A stretch of 34,598 nucleotides of DNA from a virus. The stretch is taken from the IMG/VR virus record IMGVR_UViG_3300035701_000150, positions 1-34,598 of that record; one strand, given 5' to 3'. The notes beneath the pieces were generated by a model, which was not told the DNA's origin, searched no databases, and saw only the letters and a program-made list of their open reading frames with translations. The position numbers and the translations under genes were made by a program. This document shows, one piece after another, positions 3,630 through 34,598 of this stretch; the first letter of the stretch is position 1, and each line of letters begins with the position of its first letter.

Positions 3630-5732
3630 TTAGACCGTGGCCATGCCGGTCAGCCTTGCAGGGTTTATTTTTTTGCTGCGGAAGCCGAGCTCGAGCATGC
3701 GCACGAACCGGTCGAGCTCCTGGCCTATGGCCTTGACAGTCCTGGGATCAGCATTGCCTTGAATAACTATGGTTGGCGAGGCAGTAATGGATCCAATTGT
3801 TGCACCACTGTTCAAAGCGTTGACCCCTGCTGGGCCTAAAACGTTTACGGCATTGGCGTTAAGAACTGCTTCACCGGAAGATAGGTATGCGGGTATCATG
3901 TCACTAATGGATGATCCCGATCCGGATACAATACCACCCTGGGCGAATTTGGATATCTCATTTATGTTTGCAAGTCCGGCTGCGATAGCGGCTGCGGCCG
4001 CAATTGGTCCAAGGACGAATCCTACGACAGGTATGGCCGCGGCTGACGCATAGGCAGCATTGGCGGCCTTGTACGTGTCCATGGCTGCGGCGGCGTAAGC
4101 AAAGGCCTTGTAGACGCCCTTGGCCTCTTCCCACTGCGTGGCCACGGTTTTTAGGTTGGCTGCGGCATTATCCGCGGACTGAGTGGCGGAATCCAATACC
4201 AGTTGTTTCTTTTTATCGTGATATTCCTTGTCTATAATGGTTTTTTGCTGAGTAGTAAGTTCATCATCCATCAGCTCCTGTCTGTGCTCCTGCTCGAGCA
4301 TGGTCAGGTCCTTCGCAAGGGACACCTTTCCGAGCAACTCTGAACGCTTTGCGAACGACTGCTCCGTCTCGAACTTCCTCATCTGGATGGCGGTCTCCCT
4401 CTCCGTGCCTCTTGCCAGCGCGTCCATCACTTCCTTGGTGTGCTTCTCGGCTGCCTTCTCCTCCTCCAGGTCATATTTGAACCCAATTGAAAGTATCCTG
4501 TTGCGGTGCTCCTCGGAGAGATTCGCGATGGCCTTTTTGTTGCCGGCATACGCCGTCAGTTTTCCATTATATTCAAGGTTCTCCCTTTTCATTTCGAGAG
4601 CCCTGAGATAATCAAACTTCTCATATCCGGTCTGGGCTATTGCTATTTTGGAGTCTATAAGCGCTTTCTGTGACTCAAGGGTCTGTTTTATAACAGCGGG
4701 TTCAACATATGGTTTTTCCGGAGGAGGTGCAGGAGGTGTAAAAACTTTTGCATATTTTGCCTCATATTCCCTGAATTCACCCATACTTGGAGCCGGAAAT
4801 TTAAATGGAATTGGCATGTTTGCCATTTTATATGCTGTATCAACTGCTTCTGTTTTTAGCCCTTTCCAGACTGCAATAAGATTTTTTATTTCCTGGACTT
4901 TTCCATAAACATATGACACCCCGAGTTCAATGGCAAGATTTTCTTCCGTTTGTGCTGCAATTCTAATTGGAATAAGATCTTTACCGACTTTATCCTCAAT
5001 TTCATTGAGGGCATTTTGTTGTTCTGTATATTGACCAATTGAACTTTTCTTGAATGTATCGTCTACCAATAAAAATTGTTGTTTAAGACGATCAAATATT
5101 ATGGCCGCAGCTGCCGCTTTATCACCGGAAGCTTCAAGTGATTTAATTAGATCTTCCTGTTGCGCCGTTAAATAGACACCTTCTGATCTGAGCATCCTGA
5201 GACCGCGTTGAGGGTCTTCAAGTATCCTGCCAAGCTCAAATGTCTTCTCTTTCAGGCTGCCACCAAACAAGTGTGCCATACCGGAAGCGACTTTAATTAC
5301 GTCCGGAATTTCCTTGGTCGCTATGCCTTTAAATTGAAGAGCCATGGCTTCAGCGGATTGCAACTCATCATCCGTTCGGACAGTGCTTTCCTTCAATGTA
5401 TTATTCCATGCAGTAAATTGTGTAACAGGAACATCACGTCCTGATGCCTGGAGGGATGCATCCAATTTGAATTGGGCTTCTGAAGCTTCAAGGCCGGCTT
5501 GATTGCATTCATCAAGGAAAGCAGAAAGTTTACTTACGCCGCTCGAAAGAAGACCAGTGGCAGTTGTGGCTATACCGAACGCCCCAGCCAATTTAGTAAA
5601 AGACATGGAGGATTCACCAGCCGCGGCCTTGCTCTTGTTGCCGAAGTCGTTTATGGAATTGGTAATCTTAGCCAGTTCTCCGGAGATGTGGTCCTTTAAA
5701 CGTGCTTCCACTTCTATGATGCCATCAGCCAT
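3630..5732 (-). CDS. Tail tape measure protein (700 aa)
   Basis: Tape measure proteins set siphovirus tail length and usually carry helical stretches and hydrophobic segments. This one shows a helical N-terminus (LKDHISGELAKITNSIND), a hydrophobic stretch near residues 50-70, a long charged helical middle (about 330-560), and an Ala/Gly-rich hydrophobic segment near 600-630 (VVGFVLGPIAAAAAIAAGLA) followed by FAQGGIVSGSG, a motif common near tape measure C-termini. At about 1.5 angstrom per residue, 700 residues suggests a tail near 105 nm (inference). It overlaps the preceding chaperone frame by 8 bp. The N-terminal coding half (about 4690-5560) is visibly more AT-rich than the rest, suggesting a recombined gene. 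No lysozyme or peptidase insertion is seen. Confidence 0.88.
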   Translation of the reverse strand: MADGIIEVEARLKDHISGELAKITNSINDFGNKSKAAAGESSMSFTKLAGAFGIATTATGLLSSGVSKLSAFLDECNQAGLEASEAQFKLDASLQASGRDVPVTQFTAWNNTLKESTVRTDDELQSAEAMALQFKGIATKEIPDVIKVASGMAHLFGGSLKEKTFELGRILEDPQRGLRMLRSEGVYLTAQQEDLIKSLEASGDKAAAAAIIFDRLKQQFLLVDDTFKKSSIGQYTEQQNALNEIEDKVGKDLIPIRIAAQTEENLAIELGVSYVYGKVQEIKNLIAVWKGLKTEAVDTAYKMANMPIPFKFPAPSMGEFREYEAKYAKVFTPPAPPPEKPYVEPAVIKQTLESQKALIDSKIAIAQTGYEKFDYLRALEMKRENLEYNGKLTAYAGNKKAIANLSEEHRNRILSIGFKYDLEEEKAAEKHTKEVMDALARGTERETAIQMRKFETEQSFAKRSELLGKVSLAKDLTMLEQEHRQELMDDELTTQQKTIIDKEYHDKKKQLVLDSATQSADNAAANLKTVATQWEEAKGVYKAFAYAAAAMDTYKAANAAYASAAAIPVVGFVLGPIAAAAAIAAGLANINEISKFAQGGIVSGSGSSISDMIPAYLSSGEAVLNANAVNVLGPAGVNALNSGATIGSITASPTIVIQGNADPRTVKAIGQELDRFVRMLELGFRSKKINPARLTGMATV

Positions 5733-6063
5733 TTTGTTTTCCTTTTAAAGCAATAAACTCCGCAAATTTCATTTTATAGTACGTGCAGGCCTGCAGGAAC
5801 TTTGGATTCACATCCTGGTACCCCGGCATGGGCGCAGATGGGAACTGCTCCGTATGATAAATAAAAATTTTTATAAATTCCCATATTGAACTCGGTACAA
5901 ACTGCAGTGGACAATTCCAGTACCTGGTCATCACGTTCCCTTCGGTCTCCACGTCGGCCGGCCTCAGGCTACGGCCATTGCATCCGTACAGTTTCTTAAG
6001 ATCAGGCTGCTGCCTGCACGAATTACAATTCATCCGAAGCATTCCGCTCCGGACAGCAGCCAT
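5725..6063 (-). CDS. Second tail-assembly chaperone frame (GT-type, -1 frameshift extension, 112 codons)
   Basis: The frame overlaps the upstream 149-aa gene by one base (TAATG) and ends 8 bp inside the tape measure gene, the position of the T part of the lambda G/GT chaperone pair. It has a Cys cluster (CNSC at residues 13-16, then C28 and a later NCP) that could bind a metal. A G_GGT_TTA slippery heptamer at 6069-6075 puts ribosomes moving back one base exactly into this frame, adding Arg-Val before its Met. There is only a weak Shine-Dalgarno for the ATG at 6063, so the main product is probably the 262-aa fusion rather than a free 112-aa protein. Some independent initiation cannot be excluded. 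Confidence 0.75.
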   Translation of the reverse strand: MAAVRSGMLRMNCNSCRQQPDLKKLYGCNGRSLRPADVETEGNVMTRYWNCPLQFVPSSIWEFIKIFIYHTEQFPSAPMPGYQDVNPKFLQACTYYKMKFAEFIALKGKQNG

Positions 6064-6512
6064 TACTCTAAACCCCGGAGCTCATCCTCTGTCAGAGTCA
6101 TGTTCTCCGTAATCGCATTACAGAGTTCGATCTTCATCGGCTCGGAGAGGAACCGGACTGATTTCTCCACGGATTCAAAAGGCAACATTTTGAAATCTTT
6201 GTCTTTGTAGTTCTTCCAGCCGATCAACCCCATCTTGAGAATCTTAATACGATGCGTCCCACTTCCGGAGTGCCACTCCCGCTTATTAGGATTCTGCATA
6301 TCCAGCACGCTATAGCCGCTCGAATCCTCGAGCTCGGCTATCTGCTCTCCATCAAGCGTCTTCAGGAGGAAGACCGCCCACTGCTTTTTGTCTTTAACCA
6401 GCTTACGCTGGATTGCCGGCACATATTTGAACTCTCGGTCCGGTGTGATTGCCATGTAAGCCGCCAGTTTCTCCTTTAGTTCAGGAGTCAATTCAAGGTC
6501 TCTCTGCTCCAT
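6063..6512 (-). CDS. Tail-assembly chaperone (G-type, 149 aa)
   Basis: A soluble charged, mostly helical protein between the tail tube and tape measure genes. This is the position of the tail-assembly chaperone that coats the tape measure before tube polymerisation. It starts at ATG 6512 behind AAGGGAG, next to one arm of a large inverted repeat (6527-6585). The acidic C-terminus TLTEDELRGLE is encoded over the slippery heptamer, so a fraction of ribosomes should bypass its stop and read on into the next frame. The sequence alone does not give a family. Gene order and the frameshift signal support the role. Confidence 0.78.
   Translation of the reverse strand: MEQRDLELTPELKEKLAAYMAITPDREFKYVPAIQRKLVKDKKQWAVFLLKTLDGEQIAELEDSSGYSVLDMQNPNKREWHSGSGTHRIKILKMGLIGWKNYKDKDFKMLPFESVEKSVRFLSEPMKIELCNAITENMTLTEDELRGLE
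6069..6075 (-). other. Programmed -1 ribosomal frameshift site G_GGT_TTA
   Basis: On the minus strand the codons before the chaperone stop read CGG GGT TTA GAG TAA. The last G of CGG with GGT TTA forms an X_XXY_YYZ heptamer (G_GGT_TTA) in the correct zero frame. A -1 slip gives AGA GTA ATG, which enters the 112-codon frame with no stop. This is the arrangement of the lambda G/GT site and lies 4 bases before the zero-frame stop. No obvious strong stem-loop follows at once. The site was found by eye, and frameshifting itself is inferred. Confidence 0.75.
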
Positions 6513-6526
6513 TTTCTCTCTCCCTT

Positions 6527-6585
6527 CTCACAGGTTTTTATTACTTACCGCGGCCCGGGGCAGCCCGGGCTTTGCCACCTGTGAG
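6527..6585 (-). promoter_or_regulatory. Nested inverted repeat between tail tube and chaperone genes
   Basis: A 9-bp perfect inverted repeat (CTCACAGGT at 6527-6535, ACCTGTGAG at 6577-6585) encloses a GC-rich hairpin with 6-bp arms (GCCCGG 6553-6558, CCGGGC 6565-6570). In late mRNA the outer arm ends next to the AAGGGAG ribosome site of the chaperone gene. The structure could lower chaperone translation relative to tail tube, or protect the tail-tube message. No U-run follows, so a simple terminator is unlikely. The whole 6513-6629 gap is non-coding. Confidence 0.55.
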
Positions 6586-6629
6586 GAGGTAGGCAGAGTA
6601 CCAGGCCACCCGGACAGGGCCACGGGGTT

Positions 6630-7589
6630 TTATGTCTTACTTCCTTGCAGTATCTCGACTTCAGCATCAGTAGACGCCGTCGCCCTCAATAACGCCAGGT
6701 TCAGCGTGTTTACAACAACGCCATTTCTGTCAGCGCTGTCGAACGCCTTAGTAATCTGGCACGATGGGGCCAGCACCTGGAGATGAGCACCTACGGTCAT
6801 AGCAAACGATGCCTGTGTGTTCGCGACCCACTTTCCAAGGATGTCCTTGGATGCCGTCGAATCCAGGTACGGATCTAATGTCATCTTAGGTTCTCTCCCG
6901 GTAATGACACAACCGCATATACCCTGTGCCCGGCTCGGATCGACTACATTCTCGACCTTGGTACCAGTATCGATGGACACTTTATCCATGTCCATGGTGT
7001 ACCCCATGGCCGTGACCGTACTGGCCAGGACCGCGTCAGGCTGTACATTATCGAATGTACCGTGCGTGGTCTTCGTAGTATCAAATACAGAATTCAACGC
7101 ACCCTTGAACTCGGTCTCAAGCTTGAGCGGAGCCCCCACCTGGGCGAGCGTCAGCTTGGCGGCGCCCATGCACCCGCTTGCGCGGACTATCAACGCCGTG
7201 CTGTCATCAGGCGAATTCTCAGCCACCTCGACGGTGACCGGGCACGCAGCATTGATTGAGGACAATGCATAGCCTACTCCGGTCGCCCCATAGATGGTTT
7301 CTTTCCAGCCGCAGGCTATCAGGGCCTTGCCCCACTCCGGAGGCGTGGCAGCGGTACCGGACCAGGCGAGGTCCTGGCTGAAGCTGATGGTGCACTCTTC
7401 TTTGCCCATCACAGATGAGAACGACGCGAAGTCGCCGGTCGCGTATTTGCGCTTCGTCTCGAGGATGTTAGCGCTGTACTTGACATTGTCAGCGCGGAAA
7501 TTGTAGTCCGTGCTGGTCATGTCGGTTTGAGCAGTATAAGGAGTAGCCTCGAGCTTCATCCCTACCTGCCGTTTGTTTGTTAGAAACAT
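6630..7589 (-). CDS. Major tail tube protein (319 aa)
   Basis: The start KRQVGMKLEATPYTAQ and the alternating beta pattern resemble siphovirus tail tube subunits. The gene directly precedes the chaperone pair and tape measure, where the tube protein normally sits. The protein is Thr/Ala/Gly-rich with no membrane segment, and about 100 residues longer than the smallest tube proteins, leaving room for a surface domain. The start at ATG 7589 has an AGGAGGGC-type Shine-Dalgarno in the short gap upstream. It is followed by a 117-bp structured gap that may help produce much more tube protein than chaperone. Confidence 0.82.
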   Translation of the reverse strand: MFLTNKRQVGMKLEATPYTAQTDMTSTDYNFRADNVKYSANILETKRKYATGDFASFSSVMGKEECTISFSQDLAWSGTAATPPEWGKALIACGWKETIYGATGVGYALSSINAACPVTVEVAENSPDDSTALIVRASGCMGAAKLTLAQVGAPLKLETEFKGALNSVFDTTKTTHGTFDNVQPDAVLASTVTAMGYTMDMDKVSIDTGTKVENVVDPSRAQGICGCVITGREPKMTLDPYLDSTASKDILGKWVANTQASFAMTVGAHLQVLAPSCQITKAFDSADRNGVVVNTLNLALLRATASTDAEVEILQGSKT

Positions 7590-10383: not shown

Positions 10384-12036
10384 TTAAATTTCCGAGTATC
10401 TGAACGTCACCGACAAATTATTGACGGTGCCTGATTTATCTCCAGTTCTCATCACCAGCCAGGTGTTGGCCGGAATGCCTGCAGTAGTAAAAGAAGTAAA
10501 ATCCTGTCCAATCCCGGTATTGGTGATGGTCTGCTTCGTTGAAAAGAACTTGGTGGTATCAGTCAATGTCGTGGAATAATAAGGATCAATCCCAATTGAC
10601 GGCGTAGTTCCTAATACTACCGCATGTACCTGTAACAGTGTACCTGCATTGTGCATATATAACATAGGCGTAGATTCACTCGTATCTGGAGAATCGACGG
10701 TATATGCTACGTACGCACTTGCACCCGCGGGACCCTGGGTTCCTGTTGGACCTTGTATACCCGTTGCTCCTTGAGTTCCTGTACCCTGAGTCCCAGTACT
10801 ACCTTGAGGACCAGTATTTCCCTGAACCCCTGCTCCTTGCGCACCAGTACTACCCTGAGCCCCGGCCGATCCTACTGGCCCCTGATTACCTTGTGGCCCA
10901 GTATTACCTTGTGTTCCAGCACCTGTACTACCTTGAGCCCCAGTAGAGCCCTGAGGACCTGTTTTTCCTTGTGTACCTTGAGTCCCCTGTGCTCCAGTAC
11001 TTCCTTGAGAACCCGCGCTGCCTGTAGGTCCTTGTGTCCCGGCACCAGTACTTCCCTGAGCCCCTGTTGAACCTTGATTACCTTGTGGGCCCTGAGCCCC
11101 GGTCGGTCCCTGAGACCCAGTAGAACCTGCAACTCCCCCTGAGCCCTGTGGACCAGTGGATCCCTGACTGCCTGGAGAACCAGTACTACCCTGTGAGCCA
11201 GTACTACCCTGTGAGCCAGTACTACCTTGAAATCCTTGTGCCCCCGAGCCCTGAGCCCCAGTGTTTCCTTGACTGCCGGTAGTGCCCTGTGAACCTTGAA
11301 ATCCTTGTGGTCCAGTATTTCCCTGAGCTCCTGTAGTTCCATAATTACCAGGTCCCTGGAAACCTTGTGGCCCTGTGTTTCCCTGAGCCCCTGTATTTCC
11401 CTGAGTACCCTGTGCCCCAGTACTTCCCTGGTTGCCTTGAGCCCCAGTACTGCCCTGTGGCCCGGTATTTCCCTGTGTACCTGTATTTCCCTGCGTACCA
11501 GTAGGTCCAATATTGCCTTGATTACCTTGAGCCCCTGTTGAACCCTGGTTTCCAATAGGCCCCTGCGTGCCCTGGCTGCCCGTAGGTCCTTGTAATCCTG
11601 CAGGCCCAACATCACCTTGGTCACCCTGAGGCCCGGTGGCTCCTGGAAGATTACCTGGCCCTTGTGAACCAGTGCTGCCCTGAGTACCTTGAGGCCCCTG
11701 AGGCCCGGTCAATCCTTGGATTCCAGTATTACCTTGAGAGCCCTGCCCGCCTCCGGAACCTGTTGTTCCCTGATTACCTTGAGACCCCTGTGGTCCAGTG
11801 CTACCTTGTGCCCCAGCCCCGGTTGGGCCTTGGAACCCGGTAGGCCCGGTACCACCCTGAGGCCCGGTTGGCCCTGTATTGCCTATGCCTGGGCCTTGTG
11901 GCCCCTGAGGCCCTTGATTGCCGAGAATGGCCTGTGATTTAATCTTCCAGGTGGCGGTCGCTGACCCGTAGACCCAGGTTGTTCCTGTCGTGTTTGTATA
12001 TTCTTGGCCGTCTATTGGGTTCGTCGGGAATGCCAT
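10384..12036 (-). CDS. Collagen-like fibre protein (550 aa)
   Basis: Residues 1-40 form a small N-terminal domain ([19 protein letters not shown]) found at the base of many phage fibres. Residues about 41-438 are Gly-X-Y repeats rich in Thr, Gln, Asn, Ser and Pro (GPQG, GSTG, GNTG units), able to form a collagen-like triple helix. Residues 441-550 form a beta-rich C-terminal head that could trimerise and bind a receptor. ATG 12036 uses an AAGGAG lying inside the end of the 46-aa gene upstream. The repeat resembles that of the 1093-aa protein, allowing exchange between the two genes. Role as a virion fibre is inferred. Confidence 0.85.
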
Positions 12037-12191: not shown

Positions 12192-15100
12192 TTAATCAGA
12201 TATCTTATTGACGATCAGCACGTTCCTACGAGTGGTCAAAGTAGTGGTATTTACACTATGTGAAAACCAAGCATTTACAACATTCCCACTTTTAATAGGA
12301 GCCTGTGTCGCGAATGTAAAGCCTACTGTTTGATTAGCGGCAGTATAAACGTAGCTATTTGAAAAATTATTCAGATCGGCGTTAGTTCCATCAATCAAAA
12401 TTTTCAGATATAAAGCGCCAGCGTTACCAAACTGATAAAATGAGGCCATCGAAATGACATAGGTACCATCCATCCCACAGGTAAGGTCACCATTCAAATT
12501 TGATGTCCAATTTCGGCAGTCACCTAAGTAATTTCCATATGTCCATTTGTAAAATGTGTTTGCAGTAGTAAGAACTAATGCAGTTGAATCCTGCGACGAA
12601 GTTGCAGGCTGATAAATCTTTGCAAATGCAGGAGTCCAGCTACTACCAGTACCAGTAGGACCTTGTGGCCCAGTATTACCCTGAGTTCCCTGTCCTTGTG
12701 GTCCAGTATTGCCCTGAGGCCCGGTATTACCCTGAGGCCCATTACTCGATCCAATGCGGTTTATCGTGAGTGAGGCTGGACCACTCGAAAGATTGGTTTG
12801 ATCCTCGTCGAACGAGGCATACATCTCCACATAATCACCGGCCACAAGTGTTCCGTCATATTTACAGATGGCTGCTCCGACAATCATTTCTTCTGCATAC
12901 CGGGCCTCTGCAACTGACGTTCCATTAACGTATATATCTACGTAATATTTTTTCCCGGCAGTATAGGTTTTCAGCCCGGCAAAACACCAATAACCGAATA
13001 CCGAATAAGTACCATCGTATCCGGCATTGACTGTGATTCGGTGATTAGTGGCGGCATCAACAGTAGTGTTGAGTTGTGCTCCCGCAGTCGTATCAACCCA
13101 TTTTGTATATACTCCAGCTGAATAAGTATGAGGATTATATAGGCTGCATTGCATGGCACCATATGCTTCCATTGCCCCCTGAGGCCCGGTTCCTCCTTGA
13201 TTACCTTGTGGGCCCTGAGCCCCTGTGGCTCCAGCTAAGTTTCCTGGACCCTGATAACCCTGCGGTCCGGTACTACCTTGAGCCCCAGTACTGCCCTGAG
13301 AACCTGTATTTCCCTGTGTTCCTTGGAAACCCTGTGCCCCAGTGTTCCCCTGAAATCCTTGAACCCCAGTACTTCCTTGAGACCCGGTGTTTCCCTGAGT
13401 ACCCTGTGCTCCAGTGTTCCCCTGAAATCCTTGAACCCCAGTACTTCCTTGAGACCCGGTGTTTCCCTGAGTACCCTGTGCTCCAGTACTTCCCTGAAAT
13501 CCTTGAACCCCAGTACTTCCTTGAGACCCGGTGTTTCCCTGAGTACCCTGTGCTCCAGTACTTCCCTGGTTGCCTTGAGCTCCGGTACTACCTTGTGACC
13601 CAGTGTCTCCCTGATTGCCTTGAGCTCCAGTATTGCCCTGAGACCCGGTACTGCCCTGCGTGCCTTGTGGCCCAGTATCCCCCTGGACTCCAGTAGGACC
13701 AGTATTACCTTGAACACCTTGAGTACCTTGTGCCCCGGTATTACCCTGAGACCCGGTATTACCCTGAGACCCAATGTTTCCCTGATTTCCTTGTGTTCCC
13801 TGTGCTCCGGTAGAACCTTGTGTGCCTTGTGCACCAGTACTGCCTTGAGAACCAACATCACCCTGAGGCCCAACTGATCCTTGTGCCCCAGTAGGACCAA
13901 TACTGCCCTGTGGCCCGGTATTGCCCTGCATGCTGCCTGCGGATATCTGCACCCACTTATTAATGTTTGCTATACCCGCGTAAAGTATCTCATCAACTTC
14001 ATTCCAAAGCAGTACAGGCGGTGCCGAAATGGCCGGCCATGATGACATATCCCAGAAGTTTGCTACCCCGGTGCCCCCCTGAAATCCGGTTGGCCCCTGC
14101 CAGCCCTGCGGTCCAGTATTTCCCTGAGACCCGGTATTACCTTGTACCCCCTGCGTACCTTGATTACCTTGCGTGCCTTGTGTACCCTGAAATCCCTGTG
14201 CCCCGGTATCACCTTGTGGACCAGTGTTTCCTTGTGGCCCGGAAACTCCCTGATTACCTTGGATTCCCTGTGGACCAGTGTTTCCTTGTGGCCCGGTATT
14301 TCCTTGTGGCCCAGTAGGACCTTCCAAATTACCAGGACCCTGAGACCCGGTGGCTCCAATTGGACCGGTTGGACCTTGTGAGCCTATGCCTCCTGCTCCC
14401 TGCGAACCTTGTACCCCCTGCGTACCGGTCGGACCAGGCCTGCCCTGGTAACCACGAGGCCCCTGAGGCCCTGTGGCGCCTTGTGCGCCAGCCGCCATCG
14501 GTTCCATGGGATTGTTCAAATCCTGCCGGTAGAAGACCTCCAGGCCTACCTGGACGCCTGCCATAGGCCTTGTAGTCTCGGCCATGAACGGCTGATTGTA
14601 AACAGGATAGCATTCGGTACAGGTTCTATTGCCTTCAGAATCCGGTAATACATAGTTATTCATGAACCGCTTCTCCACATCGGCCACCACCTGCTCAATG
14701 TCGCTGTTGACCGTATCAGGATTTTTAACGAAATTATCAATAGTGTATATCAGGCGCTTCTTAACCCAGTTGTCCTGGCCCTGCTCATCATACTCCTCAG
14801 CGCGGGATATCACATTGGCGAAAGGAAAGTTATTCATGGTCTCTACCGAGCGTATGTCCCGGTCGGTGTCCGTATACATGGTTTTGTTATAGCCATTGGC
14901 TTTCTTAATCTGGCTGAGCTGATATTCAATGGCCTCCGCAAGCTGGTCCTTGATTGATATTGAACAGGTCTCCTCCAAATTGAACTGTGGAGGTTCTCCT
15001 TTGGCTGTAGAATAAGGATCAAATAGGTTCTGCATGTATTCTATCGAAATCTCCACGGTCATTCCCCCATGGCTCTTGGACTGTTGCAGGCCCCAGGGAG

Positions 15101-15473
15101 TGTTCTTTTTAAATAGCGTTATGTTGCATGTTGGCTTACCATAGACATCCGGCAACATGAAGTTATTTAGTAATAACTTCTCAATATCCTTGACCGCCCT
15201 ACTTCTCTGGTGGTCTATGTCGTTGTTATTCCTGAAGAAATAATCAATGTTCATTATGGCTGATTTGAACAGGTAGCCTGAACTATGTGTAGGTTTCTGA
15301 TAGGTCTCACGGCCCCAGATTAGGTTCACGGCCGGAAAATTTCGCATCATCTCAAAACTGCGCGGCTCGATGTTGAGTTCGCCAATGTTCTGGTCATAAC
15401 CGTTCGGAATCGTTATGAGCCGAAGATTTTGAAACAAGGCCTTTCGTATCTTGGTCTTTACTGAATCAGCCAA
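12192..15473 (-). CDS. Duplicated tail-terminator-like domains fused to collagen-like fibre and C1q-like heads (1093 aa)
   Basis: Residues 1-160 and 170-322 look like tandem copies of one domain: NFPAVNL/NFPFANV, a central helix ending NNFMLPD/NNYVLPD, a shared Cys (PTCN/RTCT), and a closing strand ([24 protein letters not shown]) typical of tail terminator proteins. Collagen Gly-X-Y follows at 328-469, a 45-residue insert at 470-514, collagen at 515-766, a C1q-like beta domain at 767-911, a short collagen link at 912-944, and a second C1q-like domain at 945-1093. The start is TTG 15473, five bases after GAGGAGG. Position between gp10-like and tail-tube genes fits a terminator. A neck whisker is the simplest reading. 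Domain names rest on sequence pattern only. Confidence 0.75.
13320..13535 (-). repeat. Three tandem 72-bp units inside the collagen region
   Basis: Within collagen block 2 of the 1093-aa protein, a 24-residue unit beginning [15 protein letters not shown] is present three times in a row (residues about 647-718), with near-identical DNA at a 72-bp period: the word CCTGAAATCCTTGAACCCC recurs near 13348, 13420 and 13492. Whole-unit gain or loss keeps the reading frame and would change fibre length. Confidence 0.85.
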
Positions 15474-15765: not shown

Positions 15766-17625
15766 TTATTTTATTGCAAATACCGTTACGGTACTGTCAG
15801 TACCGGTCGACCAGAACCGTCTGATTGAATATGGATAATGAGTCCCTGCCACAACGGTCAAGGAGACATCCCCGCTCGAGGCGTCTACCGCAGTTACCTT
15901 CAGGACTCCTGACGCACCGACAGTGAATGCCTGGCAATAATCCCAGACCCCCGCCTGGTCCTGGAACAGCTGTGCCGTGGTATCAGACTTCGTCACCGCG
16001 TTAATCATTGTTCCCTGCCGGAACGGGTGCTCGGTTCTGTAGAGCCCAGTACCGGTCACGGTCAGCGGGAACGCAGTCGTATCATTGTCATTGCTGTTGA
16101 ATGTTATAATAGCCGACTGTGACCCAATATTCCACGGATAGAAGACCACGTCCGCGGTGCTCGAGTCGCCGACGGATATGTAAGCATTCGACACATTGTC
16201 GTTTGCAAGATAGAACTGCGCATTATTAGACGTGACTGTGGTCATTATAAGTGCCGTATTACCAATATTTGTTACGGTCACAGTTTTGCTTACCGTGGAT
16301 AAAGGAGTCGTAGCACCCACCCCGCATGGGCTCGGGCTTACATCTATATCTGCCGATACTTCAGTTCCATCAAACACTAACGAATAGGTCGCGGTAACCG
16401 GATCATTGGACGGTATCAATAAAGTATCCACAGAGGTACCATCCCCGTCGTGAGGCGTATACCTGACTACCACTGTGCTCGAATCACCGGTATTGAACAG
16501 TGTCTTACCTGTCACATTATTCCCGGTCATGGCAAAAGGCGCCGCCAGCCCTGACAACGTGGTTATGATAAGAGGCTGGTTCCCAGTATTGGACACGGTA
16601 ACGGTCTTGTCCGTAGTGGTATCAGTACTCTTACCGCCAAAACTCCAGGACCCTGGTGAGACGGAGACTATTGGCTGTGCGCATGTACCATCCAGGCGCA
16701 TGACATATGGTGTCGTCGCATCATTGGAAGGAATTGTCAGGTTGCTCGTGTCGCCGGTGCTCAATACGGACGGAATATAAACGACCGTCGTATCAAGCCA
16801 TGCCCCCGCGGCTATGGTAGCATCAGAGAGGCTCTGCCCAGATATCGCAAAAGGGGTTAAAGCCGTCACGGTGCCTATGGTCAGATTGATGTTACCTATG
16901 TTCGCGGCCCGTACTACTTTAGGAGTGGAACTGGATTTGATATGTGTGCCATAGCTCCAAGAGCCTGGTATTACGTTCAGAATGGCCTCTTCACATGTGC
17001 CGTCTACTATGAAAGTTACAGCAGGTGTGACCGGATCATCCGAGGATATCGTAAGAGTATCATTTATTCCAGAGTTCAATGCGGTCGGCCTGTAACTGAC
17101 CGTGGCATCAGAATAGGTTGCTCCCGGAACTATCGTTGCCGCCAGCGAACCAACCATCCAGAACGGGCTTATGAAAGTGTCGGCGGTAATATGCAAGTCA
17201 ATGTTTCCGGTATTGGTCACGGATATGGCCTGGTCGGTCGTGGTGCCGCGCAAGTGATTCCCGAAGCTTTTGAATACAGGTGAAACACCAATTATGGCCT
17301 GTTCGCATGAACCATCCATATTGAAAGCATATGTAGGAGTGATCGGATCGTTCGAAGGTATGTTAAGAACCGAGGCATCGCCCAGGCTCAGGATTGACGG
17401 TATATATGCTACGGTCATATCGGCATATGCCAAAGGAGCTATTGTAGCATCAGATATTGAAACTCCTGCAATACCAAATGGGCTGGGCGCGGTAATGGTA
17501 CCAAGTATCAGAGTAGCATCTGCAGCACCATTACTGACCCGGACTACCTGGGTCGTAGTGGAACCTTTAATGTGTACCCCGAAACTATGTGATACTGGGG
17601 CGACAATAATTGTTGAATCTGGCAT
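15766..17625 (-). CDS. ASH/Ig-like five-repeat protein with C-terminal spike-base domain (619 aa)
   Basis: Five repeats of about 105 residues (roughly 7-107, 112-212, 213-315, 316-420, 424-528) share a start V-x-P-x-x-x-S-[FY]-G, a centre T-V-x-N-x-G-N and an end PSNDPxTPxYxFxxDGTC. This is the choice-of-anchor-D or ASH/DUF1573-like Ig fold. The first three repeats end in DG[ST]C, with one Cys each. Residues about 533-619 match the adjacent 88-aa spike-base-like protein. The protein is thus a rod of Ig domains with a probable capsid- or fibre-binding foot. It starts at ATG 17625 behind AAAGGGAG. Location after the gp10-like gene suggests a head or neck decoration. No signal peptide is seen. 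Confidence 0.72.
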   Translation of the reverse strand: MPDSTIIVAPVSHSFGVHIKGSTTTQVVRVSNGAADATLILGTITAPSPFGIAGVSISDATIAPLAYADMTVAYIPSILSLGDASVLNIPSNDPITPTYAFNMDGSCEQAIIGVSPVFKSFGNHLRGTTTDQAISVTNTGNIDLHITADTFISPFWMVGSLAATIVPGATYSDATVSYRPTALNSGINDTLTISSDDPVTPAVTFIVDGTCEEAILNVIPGSWSYGTHIKSSSTPKVVRAANIGNINLTIGTVTALTPFAISGQSLSDATIAAGAWLDTTVVYIPSVLSTGDTSNLTIPSNDATTPYVMRLDGTCAQPIVSVSPGSWSFGGKSTDTTTDKTVTVSNTGNQPLIITTLSGLAAPFAMTGNNVTGKTLFNTGDSSTVVVRYTPHDGDGTSVDTLLIPSNDPVTATYSLVFDGTEVSADIDVSPSPCGVGATTPLSTVSKTVTVTNIGNTALIMTTVTSNNAQFYLANDNVSNAYISVGDSSTADVVFYPWNIGSQSAIITFNSNDNDTTAFPLTVTGTGLYRTEHPFRQGTMINAVTKSDTTAQLFQDQAGVWDYCQAFTVGASGVLKVTAVDASSGDVSLTVVAGTHYPYSIRRFWSTGTDSTVTVFAIK

Positions 17626-22743: not shown

Positions 22744-24954
22744 TTATGCTTCCTCCTCAGGAGCCTGGGCGAATACCGCCACGCACCTGCAGTTTATTGT
22801 ATTTTCAGGTTCCCCGTCCGGATCAAGTGGCATAGTCAGACCGTTGGAAAATTGATCACCTACCCGTACAACTTCCCCGTCTATGTCATGTCCATCCCGA
22901 ACCCGGTCGTCCCTGGATGAGACCCATTCCCAGTACTCAATATCTTCAGCTCGGAACGCCTCCATCCTGGTCATACTCGAGATGCTACCAGTCTCAGTCC
23001 TGGCTATGGTCATGGCGTTGCTTATACGCATTTGAAATACATCGTAAAGACCGTCTTTAAGTTCCTCGGCGAGCTGGGCATTGGTCAGTCCCTGATCAAT
23101 ACCATCCGCTACAATGTCCTCTATGACGTCGCGTGCAGTGTTAAAAGTAGTTGTATTGATGCCTTCCACAGCCTCACGCCTAAGAGCCGCGAATGCCTGT
23201 ATGCTGTCGTCGTTCACCGACCAATTCACACAACCATTAGGCAACTCATTGTTGAGCCTGTTGGTCTCACGTACCATCTGGTCCTTTACGTGTGGTTTGT
23301 ATAAGGACATGATTTCCTCATTCTCTTTCGCTACATCAAACAGGAACACGCTGGGCCCGGGCTGGGGCGTGGCCTTGCATACCATCTCCAATTGGTTCGC
23401 GGACTTATGTGCCTTGGACCAGGCATCTACTTTGTCCAAAGTCTTATTACGTTGCCGTGAGAAGAACTTCTGCAGGTCACGGTTAAGTGATTTCTCACCA
23501 GGGTCTAACACCGCTTTGCAATACTCTTCTGAGATTGCGTTGTTACGTGCGGCGTGCTTTTCTTCCTCGGAGATATCAGATGCAGCCTTCCAGTTCACTT
23601 TCCTCTCCTTTGGACTTGGCTCTCCTGTTGGCGCTGGGAACCCGCCTGGGGCCGTGGGCTGTACCCGGTCGGTCATCCAGTCGTATTTGCTTGTGTCTAT
23701 GTCTATGCCTACTATGCGAATTGCTTCGGCCGGCGGTATGGTCATCTGCTGAATCATCTGCGAGCCTATCTTCACTCTCTCCCCCAAATCGGCCTTGAGC
23801 GCCTGCACTTCTGACAAATCCGATTCCCCGTGCAGCTCCCCGGTTGGTGGTATGTACTGTATCCATTGCGTGTTGATGGCTTCCCAGATTTTGTAGTTCC
23901 ACGGAAGGTATGAATCGTACCATAGTATTTTCCTCCCCTCGATGACATTGGAATAGGGGATTCCTTTGATTGATCCTGCCGCCAGCTCATTCAGCGAATA
24001 GGCGGCCATGATGGTGTCACGGTTATTGTCCTTCTGTTCTTTCCACTGCATGTCCAGATGGGACCTGCTGAGTTCCTGAAACTTGAGACCATTACCAAGA
24101 ACTGCTATTGATCCAGCTTTGTGTGATCCGCCATAGAGCTCGGCCCATACCCGGCTGATGTCCTGGCGCTGACTTGGCGTCAGGTCCAGGTCTCCCGTGA
24201 GTATGCCGTCTGGTCGTGCATTATTTTTAAAGTAAAAGTAGTTCCAGTTGTCCGCCTCGCTATCCTGTAAAGCCTGGGCCCGGACCGGGACGTAGGGTGC
24301 CAGTCCCTTGCTGATGTCATATGGATTATAGTTATAGATACGGATTAACTCATTTGGCTTAAAATACTTAGCCGTGTCAAGATTGGTTCCTGGAATCTGA
24401 TACTTCCAACAGACCAATTTGCCCTCAACAATATCCGGAGACATGACCGAGTCATCCAGCGGATAGATACGCGCAGGAATGATTCCTTTGGTGAGGTCTA
24501 CCGGATTGCCGGCGTTGTCCTCAGGCACCAGGAATATCTGGCCACCAGTAGACCGGGACGTAGGGAGCAATAATCCAAGGATGACTGCTTCCCAGAACGT
24601 GGATCCGCTTTGCCACTCATTTGGCCTATTAAAGAGATTCAGGATTGGATGCTTGTAAATATGCTGCTCCTCGTCATCACCGTTCGCACGCTGGGCCAGC
24701 TTGGCCGGGAGGCGGCACAAGTTCTTGGCAATGGTTGATGCGCATACGTAAATCCAGGAGTGGCTCGAGTAAGGTTTGTTAGGGTCCATCATCATGGACT
24801 GTGCACCCATGCGGAACTGGCCGTAGTAATAGGATGGCTCAAAATTGGGCACAATCTTGGAGATGACCTCGCCGGCCGGGGAGTAAATGTTGGTCACACC
24901 CGCTTCGAATATGGCTGTCTGCTCCTGAGGTGTGAGCCGTCTCCTATTTGCCAT
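22744..24954 (-). CDS. Portal protein fused to a MuF-like head morphogenesis domain (736 aa)
   Basis: The N-terminal about 430 residues match HK97/SPP1-type portals: SSHSWIYVCASTIAKNLCRL, HPILNLFNRPNEWQSG, DILTGDLDLTPSQ-like helix region, MAAYSLNELAAGSIKGIPYS and IQQMTIPPAEAIRIVGIDI. The last about 190 residues are the SPP1 gp7/Mu F minor head domain: MTIARTETGSISSMTRMEAF, EWVSSRDDRVRDGHDIDGEV and a closing ENTINCRCVAVF. These are usually two genes. The start is ATG 24954 (MANRRRL) since GGAGG lies 7 bases upstream. An ATG 15 bp earlier lacks a site. The gene overlaps the one-TM gene by 11 bp. The protein forms the DNA channel and helps load ejection proteins. Confidence 0.9.
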   Translation of the reverse strand: MANRRRLTPQEQTAIFEAGVTNIYSPAGEVISKIVPNFEPSYYYGQFRMGAQSMMMDPNKPYSSHSWIYVCASTIAKNLCRLPAKLAQRANGDDEEQHIYKHPILNLFNRPNEWQSGSTFWEAVILGLLLPTSRSTGGQIFLVPEDNAGNPVDLTKGIIPARIYPLDDSVMSPDIVEGKLVCWKYQIPGTNLDTAKYFKPNELIRIYNYNPYDISKGLAPYVPVRAQALQDSEADNWNYFYFKNNARPDGILTGDLDLTPSQRQDISRVWAELYGGSHKAGSIAVLGNGLKFQELSRSHLDMQWKEQKDNNRDTIMAAYSLNELAAGSIKGIPYSNVIEGRKILWYDSYLPWNYKIWEAINTQWIQYIPPTGELHGESDLSEVQALKADLGERVKIGSQMIQQMTIPPAEAIRIVGIDIDTSKYDWMTDRVQPTAPGGFPAPTGEPSPKERKVNWKAASDISEEEKHAARNNAISEEYCKAVLDPGEKSLNRDLQKFFSRQRNKTLDKVDAWSKAHKSANQLEMVCKATPQPGPSVFLFDVAKENEEIMSLYKPHVKDQMVRETNRLNNELPNGCVNWSVNDDSIQAFAALRREAVEGINTTTFNTARDVIEDIVADGIDQGLTNAQLAEELKDGLYDVFQMRISNAMTIARTETGSISSMTRMEAFRAEDIEYWEWVSSRDDRVRDGHDIDGEVVRVGDQFSNGLTMPLDPDGEPENTINCRCVAVFAQAPEEEA

Positions 24955-25168
24955 TATTGGCCTCCACATGAGATACGGATGGAATTACTTTTTCCAGTGT
25001 GACCTTCAGGTTGCTATTGTATATTTGCACCAGCAAAGAACATACTGTCAGAAATAATACCGCTACGATTCCTATAAGTACCTGCCAGGCCCGGGCGTTC
25101 AGATCATGCATGAAATCCGTCACCGGTTTCATCTTGGCATTACATTCAGTCTCAGTCACGTTACTCAT
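24944..25168 (-). CDS. Small one-TM protein between terminase and portal (74 aa)
   Basis: One clear hydrophobic segment at residues about 28-48 (WQVLIGIVAVLFLTVCSLLV) has a polar N-terminus containing one Cys and a short basic C-terminal region. ATG 25168 overlaps the terminase stop (ATGA), and the gene overlaps portal by 11 bp. Such a protein between large terminase and portal is not typical. It could be a holin/pinholin or a superinfection-exclusion protein. Nothing in the sequence decides. I recognise no family. Confidence 0.65.
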   Translation of the reverse strand: MSNVTETECNAKMKPVTDFMHDLNARAWQVLIGIVAVLFLTVCSLLVQIYNSNLKVTLEKVIPSVSHVEANNGK

Positions 25169-27758: not shown

Positions 27759-28754
27759 ATGAAAACAGCGTTAGTTACCGGAGGTCATGGGTTTATAGGA
27801 CATCATATGGCAAAGAGGCTCAAACAGGAAGGCTACTGGGTGAGAACTGTTGATATTCAAGAGTTCCATTATGGAAAACTTCCTGTGGATGATTATACAA
27901 TAGGAGATCTGAGAGACAAGGCAATCTGTGATGAAGCTTTTACGCCCCCGGACGGGAAGCCCTGGGACGAGGTGTATTGCTTCGCTGCTTGGATGGGAGG
28001 CGCATTTGTAATCTTTTCTGGAAATAATGACGCCCAGATAGCCCATGATTCCGCTTTGCTTGATATACTTTCCGCGGAAATGTGTCATAAATATAAAGCT
28101 AAAAAAATATTTTTTTCCTCTTCAGCTTGTGTGTATAATCAGGATAATCAATTGGATCCAGATCACCCGGTCACTTATGAGGCTTCCGCCTATCCTGCCA
28201 ACCCTGATTCAATTTATGGGAAGACTAAATTATGGTCGGAGTGCTTATATCAGTCCTATCGCAGGAATATGGGTTTGGACATTAGAATTGCTCGGTTCCA
28301 TAACATCTTCGGGACAGAGGGTGCATGGGGGAATGGGAAAGAAAAAGCACCAGCGGCAATGTCTCGTAAGGTTGCTATGGTAAAGGATGGAGGCACTATA
28401 GAGATATGGGGTCCGGGAGTTCAGACAAGATCTTTTTTGTACATCGACGAATGCCTTGAGGGCATCCGCAGGCTCATGGATTCCGAAACCTTCTTCGGAC
28501 CGGTGAACATAGGGTCTGAGGAGAAGATATCTATAAATGATCTTGCCAGAATGGCCATGGACATTGCCGGCAAGAAGCTTGAGATAAAGAACGTTCCAGG
28601 ACCGCTCGGGGTCATGGGGCGCAACTCCGACAACCGGCTCATCAGGGAGAAACTGGGCTGGGCCCCGTCCAGGCCCCTCCGGGAGGGGATGGAGAAAACC
28701 TACCGCTGGATTGAGGAGCAGGTGCGCCTCGGGAAAACGGATCCTAAATGTTAA
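27759..28754 (+). CDS. GDP-mannose 3,5-epimerase-like NAD-dependent sugar epimerase (331 aa)
   Basis: A short-chain dehydrogenase/reductase (extended type) with GGHGFIG (residues 8-14) binding NAD, YxxxK at Tyr153/Lys157, and features close to GDP-mannose 3,5-epimerase: SSSACVY with Cys124, RFHNIFG, GKEKAPAAM with Lys196, WGPGVQTRSFLYIDECLEG and GRNSDNRLIREKLGWAP. The Cys and Lys match the known acid/base pair. It would convert GDP-mannose to GDP-L-galactose or a related sugar. The last third (from about 28440) is clearly more GC-rich than the first, so the gene may be mosaic or recently acquired. An AGAGGAA site precedes ATG 27759. GDP-mannose itself must come from the host. Confidence 0.88.
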   Translation: MKTALVTGGHGFIGHHMAKRLKQEGYWVRTVDIQEFHYGKLPVDDYTIGDLRDKAICDEAFTPPDGKPWDEVYCFAAWMGGAFVIFSGNNDAQIAHDSALLDILSAEMCHKYKAKKIFFSSSACVYNQDNQLDPDHPVTYEASAYPANPDSIYGKTKLWSECLYQSYRRNMGLDIRIARFHNIFGTEGAWGNGKEKAPAAMSRKVAMVKDGGTIEIWGPGVQTRSFLYIDECLEGIRRLMDSETFFGPVNIGSEEKISINDLARMAMDIAGKKLEIKNVPGPLGVMGRNSDNRLIREKLGWAPSRPLREGMEKTYRWIEEQVRLGKTDPKC

Positions 28755-33834: not shown

Positions 33835-34598
33835 TTACGGGGTTAAAAATGAATCCTGTATTGGTGCAATATTCTGCGTAGTATCCTGTAGGCCTACCCA
33901 GCCAATCTCATTCTGGTGCTGGATTGTGTCCTGTATATAATAGCCCAGCTTGCTCGGCACTCCTGTAATCATCGCTGTCAAATTAATCAGACCATCTTCA
34001 TTACCGAGCTTCCTGGTGACCTTTTCCGTGATGCATTGTATTGATGTTTTGTCAGTCTGGAACGGCAGGTCCAACCAGAAATGCTTTCCAGTATGGTATA
34101 AATTACCAATCTCATATGGCACATCAAATGACAGCCATCTCGGTGGCCTTATCTCATAGTACCCGGTTCCATCCGCGGTGGACATATCGTAAACGCCCAT
34201 ATAACTCTGCCACGAATATAAATATTGCACGGCCATCACCGGATCGGTAATCCAGTATTTGTCCGTCATTTCCGACGGCGGTTGCTCAATCTGCTTGTAA
34301 AAATTATAGAGACAATGCGACCGGCTCCACAGGGCCGAGGCGTCCGCCAGCGCAGGAACGCCTGTCACGTACGAGGCGTCCCACTGGTCTGCCTGTACGC
34401 TGAGGATATTGATGAGCCCGTCGAATTTCTGCGACGCCTGGTTGTACGAGTACTGCACATATGGCTGGCAGAATACATCCTCCGGCTTCTGCTCGGTCAG
34501 CTGTGATATTGGTCCCACAATGTCCGTCAGGTCAATGTGCGGAAACCACGCAGTTACGTCCGAACCGTCGCCTGTTGGTTTTATCGGCCACACAGGCG
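33835..34598 (-). CDS. C-terminal part of a tail-tip protein, start beyond window edge
   Basis: The frame is open to the right edge. A GTG at 34593 exists but has no ribosome site, and the codons before it are open, so this is a truncated gene. About 254 residues are seen, with motifs HIDLTDIVGPISQLTEQKPE, PYVQYSYNQASQKFDG, MTDKYWITDPVMAVQYLYSW and SFDVPYEIGNLYHTGKHFWL, and a normal C-terminus. It looks like the closing domain of the large tail-tip protein whose N-terminal 919 residues end at position 1. Joining position 34598 to 1 directly is off by one base in frame. Confidence 0.65.
   Translation of the reverse strand, partial: PVWPIKPTGDGSDVTAWFPHIDLTDIVGPISQLTEQKPEDVFCQPYVQYSYNQASQKFDGLINILSVQADQWDASYVTGVPALADASALWSRSHCLYNFYKQIEQPPSEMTDKYWITDPVMAVQYLYSWQSYMGVYDMSTADGTGYYEIRPPRWLSFDVPYEIGNLYHTGKHFWLDLPFQTDKTSIQCITEKVTRKLGNEDGLINLTAMITGVPSKLGYYIQDTIQHQNEIGWVGLQDTTQNIAPIQDSFLTP

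Follow-up and report, generated by a model that had tools for sequence, protein, structure and literature searches.

A probable −1 frameshift at the tail assembly chaperone genes of a metagenomic virus, flanked by an unusually full set of predicted stimulators

Two short overlapping frames of a metagenomic virus, here called ORF A and ORF B, very probably encode a tail assembly chaperone of the lambda G/GT type, in which a programmed −1 frameshift joins the second frame to the first, and which is equipped with an unusually full set of predicted stimulators. Frameshifting at chaperone genes is a known kind of event. The window analysed is the whole IMG/VR virus record IMGVR_UViG_3300035701_000150, a single metagenomic sequence of 34,598 bases. 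A programmed −1 frameshift between the two chaperone frames had been proposed from the letters of this DNA, and it is supported by the phase of a slippery heptamer, the neighbouring tape-measure gene and a GAGG motif 10 nt upstream, as well as by a predicted RNA structure at 7 nt, the unfavourable setting for initiation at ORF B and ten similar sites in other phages. The features used in the argument are the following:

26487-25165, minus strand: terminase, from family models
24969-22744, minus strand: portal, from family models
22489-19758, minus strand: protease and capsid, from family models
6630..7589, minus strand: gene of 319 aa standing where a major tail protein gene would lie, upstream of ORF A, named by position only
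6063..6512, minus strand: ORF A, gpG-like chaperone part, 149 aa, ending with TAA at 6065-6063; function by position
6086..6089, minus strand: SD-like GAGG, with 10 nt between its 3' end and the heptamer and 22 nt to the ORF B ATG
6069..6075, minus strand: slippery heptamer G_GGT_TTA, in the phase of A and 3 nt before the A stop, from an in-phase scan
6062..6068, minus strand: 7-nt spacer with the A stop and the first two bases of the B ATG, from fold prediction
6005..6061, minus strand: 57-nt RNA predicted to form a three-way junction, in which an outer stem of 9 bp encloses two hairpins, from fold prediction
5725..6063, minus strand: ORF B, T-like chaperone part, 112 aa, in the −1 frame relative to A; function by position
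3630..5732, minus strand: tape measure protein gene, 700 aa, directly downstream of ORF B

Family models place the head and tail genes on the minus strand, where both frames are open at the lengths of 149 and 112 aa read earlier. The tape-measure gene follows directly after A and B, which is the placement of lambda-type G/GT genes; its product matches PHROG tape-measure families (best 6.9e-08) and Pfam TMP_2 at 4.3e-04, the latter under the family cut-off. Neither ORF A nor ORF B gave a usable family match in PHROGs, Pfam or NCBIfam, and we infer from position, not from a family match, that they are the tail assembly chaperone frames. Position likewise suggests that the 319-aa gene upstream of ORF A encodes the major tail protein, or tail tube, as no match to it was found in PHROGs, Pfam or PDB sequences. 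The cysteine cluster noticed earlier in the downstream part is indeed present, as C13, C16, C28, C51 and C93 of ORF B, and ORF B may carry a metal-binding domain. AlphaFold2 models of A and B (pLDDT 45.6 and 36.1) were too poor for structure comparison.

No relative good enough for a conservation test came out of the searches with A, B, the upstream tail gene and the tape measure against viral contigs, with A, B and the tail-region DNA against phages, or with the tape measure against genome contigs. Relatives of the large terminase (30 viral loci and one Gemmataceae locus) held no match to A or to the tape measure. Weak ORF B matches, with E of 0.3 and above, were discarded, and so was a match of ORF A to locus L053 over 48 residues (E 0.017), which covers a host gene. 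The lack of an A or B relative, through which heptamer conservation or stem covariation could be followed, was counted against the frameshift.

The frames, their phase, the positions and the signal statistics are observed directly. In the A frame, GGGTTTA at 6075-6069 is split as G_GGT_TTA, so that its phase is right, and it is the sole in-phase canonical X_XXY_YYZ heptamer in ORF A. The sequence-only reading had placed it four bases before the first stop; three are found (GAG at 6068-6066, then TAA). Past the heptamer, the −1 frame reads GF and then RVMAAVRSGM..., and the slip product comes by arithmetic to 148 residues, Arg-Val and a further 112, which is the total of 262 aa given earlier. 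ORFs A and B overlap by one base, as TAATG; a −1 relation between two genes follows from any overlap of this form and is by itself no evidence. The preceding B-frame stop ends at 6082, and a −1 slip can therefore join the two frames within 18 nt only. G_GGT_TTA lies inside this stretch, in which there are four possible in-phase positions (by eye). Heptamers occupy 22 of 7333 in-phase positions in a background that leaves out two collagen-like genes and ORF A, corresponding to a chance of about 1.2% over 4 positions.

Scans with the flanking elements taken into account single out the same site. The most stable downstream fold among the 41 in-phase heptamers of 22 minus-strand genes is that of G_GGT_TTA at 6075-6069, and no other heptamer among the 41 combines, as it does, a fold of −25 kcal/mol or lower with an SD-like 4-mer 8-14 nt upstream. 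When all frames of both strands were included, there were 308 heptamers, 35 of them with an SD-like 4-mer at 8-14 nt; four of the 308 combined the 4-mer with a fold of −20 kcal/mol or lower, one of these being at 6630, at the end of the gene preceding ORF A, and only the heptamer at 6075-6069 was both below −25 kcal/mol and in phase.

The GAGG motif and the RNA junction were not reported in the sequence-only reading, and they make the frameshift signal stronger than was seen there. GAGG at 9-11 nt has a background of 1.2% of codon-phase positions. The junction RNA at 6005..6061 has a predicted energy of −29.6 kcal/mol (z −3.52), with none of 200 shuffles as good, and a slightly longer segment gave a z of −3.48, with 1 of 200 shuffles as good. 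Longer segments may fold differently: for the 100 nt that start five bases beyond the heptamer the optimum is another one, in which one inner hairpin survives but the outer stem does so only in part. As for folds of 62 nt, 24 of 8073 minus-strand positions are at least as stable as the one just past the heptamer. The most stable of the whole minus-strand region start upstream of ORF A, between it and the 319-aa gene (6513-6629), reaching −35.1 kcal/mol at 6620; this gap holds a very GC-rich inverted sequence, which might act in termination, processing or attenuation behind a strongly expressed tail gene.

For −1 shifts, SD stimulators are described as lying 9-14 nt upstream and downstream structures as being separated by spacers of 5-9 nt, and a three-way junction is noted for IS911 (PMC5009743). 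The GAGG at 10 nt and the predicted junction RNA at 7 nt both fall within these ranges for a cassette of the dnaX/IS911 type. As far as these systems are described there, the E. coli dnaX and IS911 cassettes resemble the one in this record in the SD-like element, the heptamer and the stem, and IS911 also in the three-way junction, which is predicted here, whereas the gene and the heptamer are different ones. Lambda G/GT, on the other hand, shares the two short frames before the tape-measure gene and a −1 slip near the end of the first frame, but its heptamer is GGGAAAG instead of GGGTTTA, a difference pointed out earlier and borne out by the sequence. The most shift-prone E. coli heptamers named in one review end in AAG (PMC5009743), and the use of GGGTTTA was counted against the frameshift; in the frameshift literature, as far as it is covered by titles and abstract openings, GGGUUUA appears mostly in papers on yeast and fungal RNA viruses. 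The distance from heptamer to stop, averaging 26 and 36 nt in the two published sets reported in PMC10885494, is only 3 nt in this record.

Comparable sites were reached through distant portal, tape-measure or chaperone matches. The portal search used three sequences, the wider alignment being too diverse to search with, and the tape measure gave partial matches of 26-33% identity in 35 phage records, from which loci L054-L057 were taken. Ten other phage sites carry an in-phase heptamer 0-6 nt before the first-frame stop, mostly with both flanking elements:

L039: heptamer AAAAAAC, SD-like 4-mer at 8 nt
L042: heptamer AAAAAAC
L046: heptamer CCCAAAC
Geobacillus phage GBK2: heptamer CCCAAAC
Bacillus phage Silence: heptamer CCCAAAG, annotated in its record as a joined chaperone
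L064: heptamer CCCAAAC, no SD-like 4-mer
L065: heptamer AAAAAAC, SD-like 4-mer at 13 nt
Vibrio LP.2: heptamer AAAAAAG
Vibrio 1.189.B: heptamer AAAAAAG
Dinoroseobacter R4C: heptamer GGGAAAC, SD-like 4-mer at 7 nt, downstream RNA z −1.33

L042, L046, L064 and L065 were compared by their chaperone frames alone, and the A frame of L064 and L065 was read near the stop only; L062 and L066 were left out as repeats of L063, and L060 and L061 are contigs of L046 and GBK2. The GGGTTTA of this record differs from the heptamers at all ten sites. Together with this record, the 3' end of the SD-like 4-mer lies exactly 10 nt upstream at 7 of 11 sites, and the downstream RNA has a z of −2.66 or lower at all but one (10 of 11), the exception being R4C. 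Because a single protein family accounts for six of the ten sites and the two from Vibrio are close to each other, they amount to about four independent comparisons. Before the tape-measure genes of L038 and Stenotrophomonas S1 (L054), no suitable heptamer was found near the gene end, which indicates that the neighbours do not all use the frameshift device. This finding and the dependence among the compared sites were both counted against the frameshift.

Close parallels in layout are GBK2, Silence, L046, L042, L064 and L065, with a heptamer 0-3 nt before the stop and a stem of −28 to −39.5 kcal/mol after a spacer of 5-8 nt; GAGG stands at exactly 10 nt in four of the six, as in this record. 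They differ in their heptamers (CCCAAAC, CCCAAAG, AAAAAAC) and in forming single long hairpins with no junction, and their proteins have no detectable similarity to A or B. Within the GBK2/Silence family (L059, L060, L061, L063, L064, L065), the stem pairs the codons of GL(D/N)W with those of GPLNL, so that protein and RNA constraints overlap in the two conserved motifs. Covariation in the GBK2 family is weak (two-sided change in 4 of 17 consensus pairs among 6 sequences; covariation term +0.11), and many pairs are broken in single sequences, because the stems shift register. The RNA argument for this family rests on the strong predicted folding of each sequence, not on covariation.

L039, an IMG/VR contig reached via portal similarity, offers a different kind of likeness. 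It carries A_AAA_AAC at the stop, its A frame matches PHROG 313, a tail assembly chaperone family, at 2.4e-05, and its B frame resembles ORF B in having CxxCRQ 15-16 residues past the shift point (CEQCRQ versus NCNSCRQQ), but its stem is weaker (−12.7 kcal/mol). Homology between the two B proteins was rejected as not significant: BLASTP found nothing, and 277 of 2000 shuffles score as high. No such Cys motif is present in the B frames of the GBK2-like and Vibrio sites. It is quite possible, if somewhat short of probable, that a whole branch of tail chaperones, among them those of this record, the GBK2/Silence family and Vibrio LP.2-like phages, uses three-part cassettes, consisting of an SD-like element at 10 nt, a heptamer beside the stop and a strong stem, in place of the unstimulated slip reported in lambda.

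Among the alternatives, an unlikely one that nevertheless retains some weight is that the RNA serves otherwise, for instance by protecting the transcript or by repressing B as long as A has not been translated, with only low-level unstimulated slippage as is reported for lambda. Shifts in certain tailed phages seem to proceed without stimulatory signals, according to one review (PMC5009743), and the stem overlaps the start codon of ORF B. This record differs from those phages in having strong predicted stimulators. Against the alternative, the spacer length and the GAGG at 10 nt suit stimulation of a −1 shift, and stems of this kind recur at an equal distance in other phages where the B frame lacks a start codon close to the heptamer.

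Markedly less likely is translational coupling, whereby ribosomes ending A at TAA would restart at the overlapping ATG and make a separate 112-aa B, the heptamer being incidental. TAATG overlaps are a classic arrangement for coupling, and ORF B starts exactly with ATG, whose presence right at the overlap was counted against the frameshift. Yet no SD-like 4-mer stands at initiation distance from this ATG: a spacing of 22 nt, which is that of the GAGG, is too long for ordinary initiation, whereas the same motif is 10 nt from the heptamer. An SD-like 4-mer was found by eye within 20 nt upstream of 20 of the 22 minus-strand gene starts, and is absent at ORF B and the portal gene. Moreover, the ORF B start is the most structured among these 22 starts (−29.6 kcal/mol, the next being −18.4), with the G of its ATG paired at the base of the predicted stem. 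At eight of nine compared sites, the first B-frame ATG, GTG or TTG appears only 20-134 nt past the heptamer, L055 having TTG at 5 nt. Because the ORF B start is structured and has no near SD-like motif, with GAGG 22 nt off, frameshifting accounts for the signals better than reinitiation does. That the two frames are a single gene broken by a recent frameshift mutation, or by an indel from sequencing or assembly, with nothing programmed, is conceivable for a metagenomic contig known from one sequence, but is very improbable, as a random indel would not bring together an in-phase heptamer, a GAGG spaced at 10 nt and, 7 nt on, a stable RNA, and ten other sites share the split, each with its own heptamer.

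Under the stimulated frameshift, most ribosomes would terminate at the TAA of A and yield the 149-aa protein, while a minority would stall on G_GGT_TTA with GGT and TTA in the decoding sites. Base pairing between GAGG and the anti-SD sequence, together with the RNA junction lodged at the mRNA entrance, would hold these ribosomes there, and the tRNAs for GGT and TTA could then re-pair with GGG and TTT, after which AGA GTA ATG... would be read, giving the 262-aa A-B fusion. The slippage, its efficiency and the functions of the proteins are inferred. In lambda, the tape measure is bound both by the short product and by the fusion through its G part, while the T part attaches to the major tail subunit and possibly recruits it (PMC5009743). 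By analogy, the A part may bind the tape measure and the B part may recruit tail-tube subunits.

If three-part cassettes are indeed used across this chaperone branch, the ratio of A to A-B would be set by RNA structure, perhaps at a level much higher than in lambda; for reference, reporters of two HK97-like chaperones are reported at 6 and 7% (PMC3711429). The three-part plan of the cassette would then have outlasted the turnover of its heptamer, its RNA fold and the protein sequence. Tail chaperones are described as having low similarity across phages (PMC5009743). With the shift proposed here, the tail-chaperone frameshift would be extended to a phage lineage without a recognisable chaperone sequence, in which a recoding signal can identify genes where homology fails. 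Should the stimulators work, they would contradict the usual picture of unstimulated tail-chaperone shifts and would provide a compact natural cassette that combines SD-like pairing and a three-way junction at an uncommon heptamer. The titles and abstract openings of the literature searched describe no cassette of SD-like element, stem-loop or three-way junction at a tail chaperone, which is not proof of absence. PRFect, described as trained mostly on actinobacterial phages, has SD and fold scores among its features, and such elements at chaperone shifts may therefore be less new than PMC5009743 suggests.

Several other observations were made along the record. A large tail ORF (1-2759, 919 aa so far) runs off the left end, and an open frame on the same strand enters at the right end (33835-34598), as if the ends were joined in a circular genome; the reading phase across the ends is not seamless (by eye), so a few bases may be missing. 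The C-terminal part of the portal (22744-24969) matches head-morphogenesis (MuF-like) families, making it a portal-MuF fusion. Between the head-completion and tail genes lie two long collagen-like Gly-x-y repeat proteins (10384-12036 and 12192-15473) matched to tail fibre families, whose repeats give many in-phase GGGAAAT and GGGAAAC and thereby inflate naive counts of slippery sites. A 619-aa protein (15766-17625) is composed of repeated Ig-like units, which we take to resemble SPD-2/Hydin repeats, with a tail-fibre match at its end. On the plus strand, 27759-28754 encodes a nucleotide-sugar epimerase (PHROG 540, 2.6e-67), possibly an auxiliary metabolic gene.
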